Source of the DNA: Pyrinomonadaceae bacterium
Lineage (GTDB): Bacteria > Acidobacteriota > Blastocatellia > Pyrinomonadales > Pyrinomonadaceae
Assembly: GCA_025054715.1 (NCBI GenBank)
Contig: JANWYH010000002.1
Location: forward strand, 62,001-126,000
Length of the DNA: 64,000 nucleotides
Direction: 5' to 3'
Notes under the pieces: generated by a model
Databases searched by the model: none
Told to the model about the DNA's origin: nothing
The model's input: only the letters and a program-made list of their open reading frames with translations
Part shown: positions 9,048 through 14,172 of the stretch, in pieces
How positions within the stretch are numbered: position 1 is the stretch's first letter
Layout: the number at the start of each line of letters is the position of its first letter
Translations under genes and position numbers: made by a program

Positions 9048-10370
9048 ATGAGAAAAGGTGTCGAGATTGCACCCGCCGAAGGAAAATTAGGCATTATGTT
9101 AGTTGGACTAGGAGCAGTCAGCACGACTTTTGTCGCAGGTGTAGAAGCTGTTCGCAAGGGGATGGCTTTACCTATAGGCTCTTTGACCCAGATGGGAACA
9201 ATTCGTCTCGGAAAGAGGACTGAAAATCGCTTTCCAAAAATCAAGGATTTCGTTCCTTTAGCCGATCTAAATGACTTGGTCTTTGGTGCCTGGGATATTT
9301 TTCCAGATTCAGCTTATGAAGCTGCTCTAAAAGCGGGAGTTCTGGAAAAACAACTAATTGAGGATTTAAGAGAACAGCTCCAGTCTCTAAAACCAATGCC
9401 TGCTGTTTTCTCGCAAGAATACGTAAAAAAACTAAACGGTAACAATGTTAAAAAAGCAAAAAACAAAATGGAGCTTGCTGAAGCTCTAATGGAAGACATT
9501 GCTCGTTTCAAAACGGAAAACGGTTGTGAGCGACTTGTGATGATCTGGGCTGCCTCGACGGAAGCCTTCTTAGAACCTTCCGAAGTTCATTCTTCAATTG
9601 AAGCATTTGAAAAAGGCCTTTACGACAATGATCCGAAAATTGCCCCTTCGATGATCTATGCTTATGCCGCCATAAAGTCAGGTGTCCCATTTGCCAACGG
9701 TGCTCCCAACTTGACGATCGACATACCAGCTCTTACCGAGCTTGCGGAAATTAAACGCGTTCCTATCTGCGGAAAAGACTTCAAGACAGGACAAACCTTA
9801 ATGAAAACCATAATCGCGCCGGGATTGAAAGCACGAATGCTCGGTCTTGAAGGTTGGTATTCAACTAACATTTTAGGAAATAGAGACGGAGAAGTGCTAG
9901 ATGACCCTGAAAACTTCCGAACGAAAGAAGAATCTAAGCTTTCTGTTCTCGACGCGATTCTCCAACCGGAACTTTATCCGGAACTCTATGGCAAATTTTC
10001 ACATGTAGTCCGAATAAACTACTATCCTCCGAGAGGTGATAATAAAGAAGGTTGGGATAACATTGATATCTTCGGATGGCTCGGCTATAAAATGCAGATA
10101 AAAATAGATTTTCTCTGCCGAGATTCCATTCTTGCCGCACCTTTAGTCTTAGACCTTGCTCTTTTTCTAGACCTAGCTCAGCGAGCACAAATGAAAGGGG
10201 TGCAAGAGTGGCTTTCCTTTTATTTCAAGTCACCACAGACGGCACCCGGGCTTTATCCCGAGCATGATCTTTTTATTCAACTTAAAAAACTCAAAAACAC
10301 TTTAAGATATTTAAGAGGAGAAGAATTGATAACGCACCTCGGTTTAGAATACTATGAATCCGACATCTAA
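9048..10370 (+). CDS. ino1: myo-Inositol-1-phosphate synthase
   Basis: 440 residues. It converts glucose 6-phosphate to inositol phosphate using an internally recycled NAD. The N-terminal Rossmann segment reads LGIMLVGLGAVSTTFVAGV, followed by the family motif around GAWDIFPDSAYEAA; GKDFKTGQTLMKTI and GWYSTNILGNRDGEVL are the conserved NAD/substrate segments. A GAGGT ribosome site lies about 11 nt before the ATG. The length fits the eukaryote-like long form rather than the short archaeal one. With the inositol monophosphatase at 35498 the cell can probably make free myo-inositol. Transcribed alone; convergent with metH. Confidence 0.95.
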   Translation: MRKGVEIAPAEGKLGIMLVGLGAVSTTFVAGVEAVRKGMALPIGSLTQMGTIRLGKRTENRFPKIKDFVPLADLNDLVFGAWDIFPDSAYEAALKAGVLEKQLIEDLREQLQSLKPMPAVFSQEYVKKLNGNNVKKAKNKMELAEALMEDIARFKTENGCERLVMIWAASTEAFLEPSEVHSSIEAFEKGLYDNDPKIAPSMIYAYAAIKSGVPFANGAPNLTIDIPALTELAEIKRVPICGKDFKTGQTLMKTIIAPGLKARMLGLEGWYSTNILGNRDGEVLDDPENFRTKEESKLSVLDAILQPELYPELYGKFSHVVRINYYPPRGDNKEGWDNIDIFGWLGYKMQIKIDFLCRDSILAAPLVLDLALFLDLAQRAQMKGVQEWLSFYFKSPQTAPGLYPEHDLFIQLKKLKNTLRYLRGEELITHLGLEYYESDI

Positions 10371-10492: not shown

Positions 10493-13400
10493 TCATCCTT
10501 CGATATTAAAATACCTAGCTTCTGGATGATGAGTGATTATGGCGGAAGTTGATTGCTCTGGATTTAGTTGAAATTCTTCTGTCAGCTCAACACCGATTCT
10601 TTCTGGCTGCAAAAGTTCAAATATCTTTGCCTGGTCTTCAAGATTTGGACATGCGGGATAGCCGAAGCTAAAGCGAGCGCCGCGGTATCCTTGCTTGAAA
10701 AGTTTTTCTATGGAATCAGCATCCTCATCTGCGATTCCCAACTCTTCTCGAATTCGTTTATGCCAGTATTCAGCAAGTGCTTCTGTTGCTTCAACAGAAA
10801 GCCCATGAAATAGCAGATATTCTTTGTAGTTATTTGCTTTAAAAAGCTTTGCGGAGTGTTCGGAAGCCCTCTTTCCCATCGTTACCAAATGGAATGCCAC
10901 AACATCAATTCTTCCACTCTCTCTTGGTGCAAAAAAGTCAGCTATACACAAATTTTGACTTCCTCTTTGCGTAAGAGGCTGTCTTGGAAAAGTAAAGCGT
11001 AACCACTCGGTTTTTTCGTCATCTCGATAAATTATCAAATCATTTCCTTCAGACTGGCAAGGAAAATAACCATAAACCAATTTAGCTTCAAGCAATCGTT
11101 CACGAATTGCTTGCGCCTTTAGTTCGTTATACTTAGGATAAACCTCCTTCCTTAAAAACTCCTCATATTCCTCTTTTGAGCGTCTTCCTTGCTTAAATTG
11201 CCATTGCCCTTTGAAAAGAGCCGTTTCATTGATGAAGGCAAAAATTTTACTTAAATCCTTTATTTCGACCACTTTCGAGCCATAAAAAGGAGCCTTCGGA
11301 ATTGGAACATTTGTTGAGACGAAAGAGCGTGTTGTGTGAGTCGTATCTTGTTTGGACCTAGCTGAAAAACGAATAATTTTTTTACCAAGCTTTGCTTCCT
11401 CAGCCAAAAGTTCCTCTTTTCCGTTTTGCTTTGCTAGTTTGGGTTGTTTATCTTGACTATGTCCGGTGATTAAATCCATGGCACGAAGCCCGTCGAAGGC
11501 ATCTTTTGCATAAAAGAGCCTACCCTTGTAAAGGGGTATTAGTTCTTCCTCGACATACTTTCTATTCAAAGCAGCACCGCCCAAGATAACTGGTACGGTT
11601 ATACCTTTATCGTTCATCACCTCTAGATTTTCTTTCATTATTAAGGTTGATTTCACTAAAAGTCCGCTCATGCCGATCGCATCAGCTTTATGTTCTTCGT
11701 ATGCTTTAAGAATGTTCTCTATCGGCTGTTTTATGCCGAGATTGATAACTCGGTAGCCGTTGTTCGTCAAAATTATATCAACTAAGTTTTTGCCAATATC
11801 GTGAACGTCGCCTTTTACAGTGGCAAGAATCATTGTACCCTTACAAACTCCTTCTACCCGCTCCATAAAAGGCTCAAGAAACTTCACAGCAGCTTTCATC
11901 ACTTCAGCTGACTGAAGAACAAACGGAAGTTGCATTTTCCCTTCGCCAAACAGATCGCCAACAACCTTCATTCCATCAAGTAAAATATCGTTTATTATGT
12001 CGAGTGGAGAGTATTTTTCCAGCGCTTTTTTAAGATTTTCCTCAAGCCCGATTTTTTCACCGTCAATTATGTGCCTTTTGAGCTTCTCTTCTAATGAAAG
12101 ATTTTCTGTTTCTGCCTTAATTGATTTTGCATTCTTCCCTTCGAAAAGCTTTGTAAATTCCGCCAGTGGATCGTAGATACACACTCCATCGCTAAATCGC
12201 CTTCTGTCGTATATTAGATCAAGCGCTACCTCGATTTCGTGCTCGCTAAAACGACTCAATGGGAGTATTTTTGAAGCGTTGACAATTGCCGAGTTCATTC
12301 CTGCCTGCACGCATTCATGTAAGAAAACAGAATTTAGTACAATGCGAGCCGCAGGTACCAAGCCAAAAGATATATTGGATATACCGAGAATTATATTTGC
12401 GTCGGGCATTTCTTTGTGGATTTGCTTAATTGCTTCGATCGTTTCTGCCGCATTTCGCCTATCTTCCTCTATGCCGGTTGAAATAGGCAAGGCTAAAGGA
12501 TCGAAGAAAATGTCATGAGGCTTTATACCAAACTCAATTGCTTGCTTGTAAGCACGACGAGCTATGGCAGTTTTTTTTTCTGCTGTTCGAGCCATTCCTT
12601 CCTCGTCAATAGTTCCGATGACAACGCTAGCACCGTAAACTTTAGCCAGTTCGAGAACTTTAAGGAATCTAGGCTCGCCATCTTCGTAATTTGTAGAGTT
12701 TAGTATGCATTTACCACCAGCAAGTTTTAATCCTGCCTCCATTTTTTGCCATTCTGTTGAGTCAAGCATCAAGGGAATCTTTACATTTGTGACTAACCTT
12801 GACACAAGCTCATGCATGTCCCGAACGCCATCACGTCCTACAAAATCAACGTTAACATCAAGAATATGAGCCCCTTCGCGCTCTTGCTCTTTTGCAAGCT
12901 GAACCAAACCGTCCCAATCTTCCTTTTGCAAAAGTTCACGCATTTTCTTAGAGCCAGAAGCGTTGACTCTTTCGCCAACAATCAAAAACGAACTGTCTTG
13001 ATTGTAAGGTTGAGAAATGTAAATTGAAGATGCAGAGGGTGTAAACCTAGCTTTACGCTCTTTAGGTAATACGCCTTGCATTTTCTCCACGACTAGCTTC
13101 AAGTGAGCAGGCGTAGTGCCACAGCATCCTCCAACGATGTTTACCCCGAACTCCTTAGCAAAACGCTCGATTTTTGCTGAAAAATCTTCAGGCGTTTCTG
13201 GATAAAATTGCTTTCCATCTTTTATTTCCGGCAAACCCGCATTTGGCAGGACGGAGACAGCAAATGGTGCATTCTCGCAGAGAAACTTGACATTTTCGGT
13301 CATATGATCGGGTCCTGTCCCGCAATTCATTCCTATAACATCAATCGAGAATGGCTCAAGCGCCGTAAGCGCTGCGCTTATTTCTGTTCCGTTAAGCATT

Positions 13401-13993
13401 GTCCCGAAAGTTTCAATCGTAACTTGCACTATTATCGGTATCCGAACACGTCTTTCGGCGAAGAACTCAAAAATTGCGTTAAGTGCAGCCTTAGTTTGAA
13501 GTATATCCTGACAGGTTTCGATGATATACATATCAACGCCACCGTCAAAAAGACCTCGAACCTGCTCTCTGTAGGCTTGCTTTAGCGCATCGTATGAAAT
13601 GTGCCCTAGAGTAGGAAGTTTGGTTCCAGGTCCGATTGAACCAGCTACAAAGCGTGGATGATTAGGCGTTGAGAAATCTCTTGCCAGACGCTTTGCAAGT
13701 TCGGCAGCCCGTTTGTTTATGTCATAAGTCTTGTCGGCGATACCGTATTCTCCAAGAACTACGCCATTTGCTCCAAATGTGTTCGTTTCAATAACATCGC
13801 ACCCTACTTCTAAAAACCCCAAATGCACCTTCTCTATCGCTTCGGGCTTGGTGTAGATAAGGTTTTCAGAGCAATTTTCAAACTGAGCACCTCCCCACTC
13901 TTCGAGTGAAAGATTTTGCGCCTGAAGATTGCTCCCCATCGCCCCGTCAAAAACTACTACTTTTTCTTTTAGAATCTTCAAAAAGTCTTTCAT
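10493..13993 (-). CDS. metH: Cobalamin-dependent methionine synthase
   Basis: Full-length (about 1166 residues) modular MetH, which methylates homocysteine from methyltetrahydrofolate through B12. In order: homocysteine domain (VVFDGAMGSNL, GMNCGTG and GGCCGTTP zinc Cys), pterin-binding domain (FLIVGERVNASGSKKMREL), cobalamin module (cap, then DVHDIGKN with the B12-ligating His, SGLLVKS, GGAALN) and the AdoMet reactivation domain to the C-terminus. The ATG at 13993 follows TTG-CTG; the TTG at 13999 is spaced 6 nt from a GAGGT site and could be the true start. A SAM-II-like riboswitch and a terminator lie upstream, so expression should fall when S-adenosylmethionine is abundant. Confidence 0.97.
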   Translation of the reverse strand: MKDFLKILKEKVVVFDGAMGSNLQAQNLSLEEWGGAQFENCSENLIYTKPEAIEKVHLGFLEVGCDVIETNTFGANGVVLGEYGIADKTYDINKRAAELAKRLARDFSTPNHPRFVAGSIGPGTKLPTLGHISYDALKQAYREQVRGLFDGGVDMYIIETCQDILQTKAALNAIFEFFAERRVRIPIIVQVTIETFGTMLNGTEISAALTALEPFSIDVIGMNCGTGPDHMTENVKFLCENAPFAVSVLPNAGLPEIKDGKQFYPETPEDFSAKIERFAKEFGVNIVGGCCGTTPAHLKLVVEKMQGVLPKERKARFTPSASSIYISQPYNQDSSFLIVGERVNASGSKKMRELLQKEDWDGLVQLAKEQEREGAHILDVNVDFVGRDGVRDMHELVSRLVTNVKIPLMLDSTEWQKMEAGLKLAGGKCILNSTNYEDGEPRFLKVLELAKVYGASVVIGTIDEEGMARTAEKKTAIARRAYKQAIEFGIKPHDIFFDPLALPISTGIEEDRRNAAETIEAIKQIHKEMPDANIILGISNISFGLVPAARIVLNSVFLHECVQAGMNSAIVNASKILPLSRFSEHEIEVALDLIYDRRRFSDGVCIYDPLAEFTKLFEGKNAKSIKAETENLSLEEKLKRHIIDGEKIGLEENLKKALEKYSPLDIINDILLDGMKVVGDLFGEGKMQLPFVLQSAEVMKAAVKFLEPFMERVEGVCKGTMILATVKGDVHDIGKNLVDIILTNNGYRVINLGIKQPIENILKAYEEHKADAIGMSGLLVKSTLIMKENLEVMNDKGITVPVILGGAALNRKYVEEELIPLYKGRLFYAKDAFDGLRAMDLITGHSQDKQPKLAKQNGKEELLAEEAKLGKKIIRFSARSKQDTTHTTRSFVSTNVPIPKAPFYGSKVVEIKDLSKIFAFINETALFKGQWQFKQGRRSKEEYEEFLRKEVYPKYNELKAQAIRERLLEAKLVYGYFPCQSEGNDLIIYRDDEKTEWLRFTFPRQPLTQRGSQNLCIADFFAPRESGRIDVVAFHLVTMGKRASEHSAKLFKANNYKEYLLFHGLSVEATEALAEYWHKRIREELGIADEDADSIEKLFKQGYRGARFSFGYPACPNLEDQAKIFELLQPERIGVELTEEFQLNPEQSTSAIITHHPEARYFNIEG

Positions 13994-14037
13994 CAGCAAA
14001 AATTTACCTCTTCTTTGATTTATAGCCCAAAGCTAAA

Positions 14038-14058
14038 AAAGCGCCAAACAGGCGCTTT
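14038..14058 (-). terminator. Intrinsic terminator between the riboswitch and metH
   Basis: On the minus strand an 8-bp perfect stem (AAAGCGCC / GGCGCTTT) with a 5-nt loop runs into a T-tract. It lies 25 nt downstream of the aptamer and 45 nt before metH, so it is placed to attenuate metH rather than end the upstream gene. The 5' arm contains CGCCT, complementary to AGGCG at 14122-14118 inside the aptamer, a possible antiterminator pairing. Confidence 0.8.
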
Positions 14059-14082
14059 CTTGAGATTCACTTCTTTGAGAGC

Positions 14083-14135
14083 GGCTGTTTAGCAACTTCT
14101 TTAACGTGGCTGCAAGTCGCCTTAAATCACCACGT
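14083..14135 (-). promoter_or_regulatory. SAM-II-type (SAM_alpha) riboswitch aptamer upstream of metH
   Basis: The minus strand carries the H-type pseudoknot layout of the SAM-II class. P1 is ACGTGG (14135-14130) with CCACGT (14109-14104). The loop begins TGATTTAA. P2 pairs GCGACTT (14120-14114) with AAGTTGC (14098-14092), seven base pairs with one G-U, and the 3' side ends GCTAAA. The conserved TGATTTAA, TTGCA and GCTAAA blocks match what I remember of the metX SAM-II aptamer whose structure is known. SAM-II elements control methionine and SAM biosynthesis genes and are best known from Alphaproteobacteria. The position ahead of metH and a terminator supports SAM-triggered termination. Confidence 0.85.
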
Positions 14136-14143
14136 ATAAAAAC

Positions 14144-14172
14144 ATTGAATCATCTATTCGAGAAAAATGCAA
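14144..14172 (-). promoter_or_regulatory. Possible promoter of the metH riboswitch transcript
   Basis: Minus strand TTGCAT (14172-14167), 17-nt spacer, TTCAAT (14149-14144). Transcription would begin at about 14136, exactly at the 5' edge of the aptamer. The boxes are only moderately close to consensus. Confidence 0.45.

Follow-up and report, generated by a model that had tools for sequence, protein, structure and literature searches.

We show here that the cobalamin-dependent methionine synthase gene (metH) of a Pyrinomonadaceae bacterium is preceded by a genuine SAM-II riboswitch that adds a member to this known class; the switch would be expected to bind SAM and, at high SAM levels, very probably halts transcription. 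The element lies on the minus strand of the 64-kb stretch of DNA analysed here (the window), and its ligand-binding strand can form either the SAM-II pseudoknot or an antiterminator with the terminator that follows it. We put the probability of a SAM-II riboswitch turning metH off via transcription termination at about 0.88. Although the switch class is known, its spread through Pyrinomonadaceae and its terminator-control mode are new relative to the papers searched.

Results

A cmscan search of the 64-kb window with Rfam 15 returned SAM_alpha/SAM-II (RF00521) as the only match, covering the model over its full length (1-79) with a score of 52.5 bits where the gathering score is 36, at an E value of 6.3e-9. 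The preliminary description of this DNA had called a SAM-II-type riboswitch and proposed this covariance search as a check, which bears the call out; every string that it quoted is found on the minus strand of the window. SAM_alpha occurs once in the 2.45-Mb genome of the host and gave no match in 14 control genomes. When the window was read against the list of invariant bases in PMC3764141, all of the pocket bases were present (U10-U12, U20, U21, G22, C23, G42, C43, U44 and A45-A47); U10-U12, in 2QWY numbering, correspond to window positions 14126-14124 within L1.

The 6-bp P1 stem appears in the cmscan alignment with the arms that had been named for it (Table 1), and according to the alignment and the folds it fits both states of the switch. 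The P2 pseudoknot of the window joins GGC-GAC-UUGC (14121-14112) to GCUAA-ACA-GCC (14093-14083, with GCTAAA at 14093-14088 of the minus strand), contains C23-G42, G22-C43, U21-A45 and U20-A46, and includes a P2a helix, GGC/GCC, of merely 3 bp. Base triples of the SAM-II crystal structure contain C23-G42, U21-A45 and U20-A46 (PMC3764141), and the helix suggests that G22-C43 is a crystal-type pair as well; the analogous P2 of SAM-V has a bulged U (PMC6061858). Among 98 distinct Acidobacteriota aptamers these four pairs are formed in 98/98, the first P2a pairs in 96/98 and 95/98, and the next pair, with several pair types, in 67/98. The six crystal-structure P2 pairs form in 95-98 of the 98 aptamers, and the outer P2 pairs vary, again with several pair types. 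The preliminary description had instead drawn P2 as GCGACTT (14120-14114) with AAGTTGC (14098-14092). Both strings occur on the minus strand and their pairing exists in the window and in a sister genome, but it is absent as a class feature, and we discarded it since its two central pairs form in just 17/98 and 20/98 aptamers.

Table 1. Features of the metH leader and of the methionine synthase genes. Positions are those of the window unless a contig is given.
Feature	Position	Strand	Sequence or detail	Basis
Probable promoter	14144..14172	-	-35 TTGCAT 14172-14167; 17-nt spacer; -10 TTCAAT 14149-14144	read from sequence
SAM-II (SAM_alpha, RF00521) aptamer	14069..14143	-		cmscan covariance match
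P1 hairpin	14104..14135	-	arms ACGTGG 14135-14130 with CCACGT 14109-14104	cmscan alignment and fold
L1 third strand	14122..14129	-	UGAUUUAA (= TGATTTAA)	alignment; role from PMC3764141
P2 5' strand	14112..14121	-	GGCGACUUGC	2QWY topology and pairing counts
P2 3' strand	14083..14093	-	GCUAAACAGCC; holds SAM-binding GCUAAA; also antiterminator core	
Antiterminator strand A	14080..14093	-	GCUAAACAGCCGCU	duplex energy and minimum-energy leader fold
Antiterminator strand T	14043..14056	-	AGCGCCUGUUUGGC	duplex energy, leader folds
Intrinsic terminator	14035..14058	-	AAAGCGCC-TGTTT-GGCGCTTT (with T tract: GGCGCTTTTTT); T tract to 14035	fold, conservation
metH, cobalamin-dependent methionine synthase	10493..13999	-	start TTG 13999 or ATG 13993; GAGG at 14010-14007	TIGR02082 and Pfam
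bhmT-metF of the same genome (L172)	C17:72231-74093	-		

The aptamer stands, as expected of the class, upstream of a methionine/SAM gene. Indeed, the product of metH, which had already been named as the target, scores 1431.6 bits against TIGR02082 (cut-off 1011) and contains all five Pfam domains (S-methyl_trans, Pterin_bind, B12-binding_2, B12-binding and Met_synt_B12). The gene upstream of the leader belongs to the saccharopine dehydrogenase family and has its stop codon at 14201-14199. Elsewhere in the window, an ORF at 9048-10370 (+) with a weak match to inositol-3-phosphate synthase (19 bits) probably encodes a distant myo-inositol phosphate synthase relative.

No promoter over threshold was returned by a simple scan of the window leader. 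A probable promoter can be read there, with a -35 box weaker than that of relatives, and transcription would be expected to start at about 14137, just ahead of P1. In most relatives a promoter-like site (TTGACA, a spacer of 16-18 nt, then TTCAAT or a close variant) is found a short way 5' of P1, in the form of TTGACA and TTCAAT at metH and of TATAAG/CATTAT at bhmT-metF. The hairpin that follows the aptamer folds with -15.4 kcal/mol (z -4.8 against shuffles), in agreement with the strong terminator first described there. A simple terminator scan of the window did not pick up the hairpin at 14058-14035, probably because the entire T tract can be drawn into an extension of its stem.

Antiterminator strand T comprises the 5' arm of the terminator, its loop and the first bases of the 3' arm. 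With strand A it forms a duplex of 13/14 pairs, one of them G-U, at -21.9 kcal/mol; compared with composition-matched random hairpins this gives a z of -3.9, and 0/300 shuffles were as good. The free leader folds into P1 and a long helix of GCUAAACAG.CGCU with AGCG.CUGUUUGGC (z -4.2). Since this helix takes up both the ligand-binding strand and the terminator 5' arm and loop, it excludes P2 as well as the terminator, and leaves P1 untouched. According to folding models, which treat neither pseudoknots nor SAM nor kinetics, the antiterminator has a pair probability of ~1 and the terminator of 0 in the ensemble of the free leader, whereas reserving the P2 strands to mimic SAM raises the terminator to a probability of 1. 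In the same models of a growing leader, the antiterminator is formed before the 3' arm of the terminator is complete. Folds and sequence agree on a predicted terminator and on a predicted antiterminator that is incompatible with the ligand-bound fold.

Given that the antiterminator excludes both P2 and the terminator, SAM should fix P2 in place and so release the terminator, which would turn metH off. Transcription would begin just 5' of P1. With SAM bound, the pseudoknot P2 (GGC..UUGC with GCUAA..GCC) would hold the strand GCUAAACAGCC, the terminator could form and RNA polymerase would leave ahead of metH. When SAM is scarce, P1 would persist and the GCUAAACAGCC strand, extended to GCUAAACAGCCGCU, would be free of P2 to capture the emerging terminator 5' arm and loop, AGCGCCUGUUUGGC; with the terminator blocked in this way, metH would be transcribed.

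The metH loci related to that of the window are from Acidobacteriota, the nearest being MAG J014 (83% identity), followed by Pyrinomonadaceae including Pyrinomonas methylaliphatogenes; the earlier impression of a phylum other than Proteobacteria therefore applies to these loci as well as to the host. The aptamer core is present in the window and in 43/46 related metH leaders, and two of the three leaders without it are on contigs ending close to metH. In all, the unit of promoter, aptamer and terminator is kept in ~100 leaders, with the terminator 3' of the aptamer and before metH or bhmT-metF. An automatic hairpin finder made a wrong or poor choice in L002, L020, L026, L152 and L111; a clear hairpin is visible by eye in the first four, in L020 without a good T tract, and by eye no clear terminator hairpin was found in L111, which is from another family. 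The terminators of relatives differ widely (e.g. GCCCCGCGTTGTTTGGCGCGGGGC, AAACTCTGTGCTTGTTTGGCACAGAGTTT, GTCTCGCTGTTTGGCGAGAC), their loop stays UGUUU-like, and the arm tracks the aptamer 3' tail (e.g. GAGTTT/AAACTC, CUCGG/CCGCG).

The antiterminator is better than shuffled hairpins at 0.05 in 81/101 leaders. Cognate pairs of aptamer strand and terminator reach -18.6 kcal/mol, compared with -16.5 +/- 0.2 kcal/mol for permuted pairs (z -10, 0/2000), and with the invariant core removed they still beat permuted pairs (z -7.9, 0/5000), kinship being ignored in both comparisons. This co-variation stems from an AT-richer group and from differences between groups, and distal co-variation within the group of GC-rich terminators gave no signal (z -0.3). 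Outside the family, L162 pairs GCUAAAGAGC with the terminator GCUCUUUA and shows a two-sided C-G to G-C change at one pair.

Other readings of the leader were considered. In one, the aptamer works on translation and the hairpin at 14058-14035 plays no part in it. This has precedents, as translational SAM-II riboswitches exist (PMC6061858), that of S. meliloti metA being one (PMC9373788). However, the probable ribosome site GAGG is located past the terminator, where neither alternative structure reaches, and the aptamer strand and terminator co-vary, which makes a translation-only mode very improbable. The preliminary remark that SAM-II elements often act on translation also runs against surveys that hold most to be transcriptional (PMC6061858, PMC2258182). 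We consider it slightly less probable still that the hairpin merely ends the upstream saccharopine dehydrogenase family gene. It does lie 3' of that gene, but a promoter-like site and the aptamer stand in between, the aptamer-terminator unit also precedes bhmT-metF elsewhere in relatives, and several metH loci have a small ORF as the following reading frame, in front of metH.

From the pocket one might suspect a relative of SAM-II whose ligand has changed, to SAH for example. PMC3764141 describes U10 as fully conserved in SAM-II, and a G replaces it in about nine tenths of the family aptamers (95/105 leaders, before both metH and bhmT-metF). The window keeps U10 (14126) together with every listed contact base; copies with U10 and with G10 control identical genes, and the MetH tree shows three or more exchanges between the two, so that a change of ligand is highly unlikely. 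Equally poor is the prospect of the antiterminator of the preliminary description, the aptamer AGGCG paired with CGCCT of the terminator arm, which we dropped on energy: the two are complementary over five bases, but AGGCG (14122-14118) sits within the loop of P1 and leaves out all of the loop-complementary bases that relatives keep, and forcing this pairing gives -21.3 kcal/mol against -38.5 kcal/mol for the free leader with its different antiterminator, at a cost of 17 kcal/mol. The logic attached to it, that SAM binding would free the terminator, is kept in the SAM-II termination switch proposed here, through other strands.

SAM-II scores over the cut-off in 108/119 Pyrinomonadaceae genomes, usually with two copies, one at metH and one at a bhmT-metF fusion, i.e. 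a gene matching bifunctional homocysteine S-methyltransferase/methylenetetrahydrofolate reductase. The gene behind SAM-II is metH in 64 and bhmT-metF in 39 of the 105 leaders collected in the family, and further targets in relatives are metY, a cystathionine gamma-synthase-like gene and thrC. Of 396 genomes sampled from the phylum, 52 match SAM-II at E 0.001 and 35 exceed the cut-off, most of them in Pyrinomonadaceae; other families and classes have copies here and there. The host genome itself has a bhmT-metF (77% identity to the Pyrinomonas protein), but neither an Rfam match nor aptamer strings were found upstream of it. Its leader is short and closely behind a recombinase-like gene, at a place where relatives mostly carry SAM-II; the switch was probably lost there in a small genome.

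Several loci depart from this arrangement. At L007, L008, L012, L016 and L018, ~540-650 nt separate the SAM-II terminator from metH, and L007, L016 and L018, which were inspected, hold a small ORF in this gap, which the switch would thus control too; the ORF of L007 has no match among NCBIfam families. In a Pyrinomonas-like genome (G101), a third, weak SAM-II match of 28.1 bits, below the cut-off (L163, C1:90695-90766), stands ahead of two genes, one cystathionine gamma-synthase-like and one for aspartokinase/homoserine dehydrogenase. Tandem SAM-II-like aptamers, ~110-150 nt apart, occur at L160, L161, L162, L164 and L127 in other Blastocatellia, and at L165. The gene 3' of the L160 tandem encodes threonine synthase, and the tandems of L162, L164 and L127 are followed by similar protein starts. 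Tandem SAM-II is already known from 44 cases (PMC9481103); threonine synthase is an unusual target for it.

Discussion

SAM-II has been placed in alpha- and some other Proteobacteria and in Bacteroidetes (PMC1273637, PMC2258182), and the text of a survey of regulons in Proteobacteria names metY, hom, metA, metX, metC and metW as its targets, and not metH (PMC4239095). We found no description of SAM-II in Acidobacteriota in the literature searched, which covered few subscription papers; such matches may already be listed in Rfam or RefSeq annotation.

Terminators were noted when SAM-II was discovered (PMC1273637), and the SAM-II of Sinorhizobium meliloti metZ (L174) is predicted to be transcriptional (PMC9373788). 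L174 shares P1, the L1 triplex strand, P2 with GCUAAA and a 3' terminator with the window. In addition, as long as the terminator hairpin of L174 is incomplete, its P2 3' strand, GGCCGG, is paired to CCGGTC of the terminator 5' arm, and thus the switch logic is common to both. In contrast, L174 scores 85.2 bits and is from another phylum, the target in the window is metH rather than metZ/metY/metA/metX, and the P2a of the window has 3 bp. The antiterminator of the window is also stronger (-21.9 vs -14.3 kcal/mol), and that of Acidobacteriota is longer and, crossing the ligand-binding GCUAAA, reaches into the loop of the terminator without a break. The SAM-binding core of SAM-V is nearly superimposable on that of SAM-II (PMC6061858). 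However, SAM-V is translational, with the Shine-Dalgarno sequence in P2a, whereas P2a of the window feeds a terminator, and the window passes the cut-off of SAM_alpha only. The SAM-I (S-box) terminator switches of Firmicutes also turn genes off through a terminator in response to SAM, but with an unrelated four-way-junction aptamer, and no SAM-I Rfam match is present in the window.

We lean towards a lineage-specific Pyrinomonadaceae design, with a mostly tolerated U10 to G change, in which the ligand-binding strand is one arm of an antiterminator of 13-14 pairs. Its first arm would consist of GCUAAA and the P2a 3' strand, and its second of the terminator 5' arm and loop. If this is true, the pocket, the pseudoknot and the terminator loop evolve together. 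The natural alternation of U10 and G10 offers a ready comparison for ligand recognition by SAM-II. Expression platforms of SAM-II have been little studied, and here the sequence itself shows how the ligand strand would compete with the terminator, with ~100 aligned aptamer-plus-platform sequences as a resource. SAM-II, of which most descriptions come from Proteobacteria, Bacteroidetes and marine metagenomes, is now extended to a whole family of Acidobacteriota, and in most genomes of Pyrinomonadaceae it is predicted to control both methionine synthase genes.
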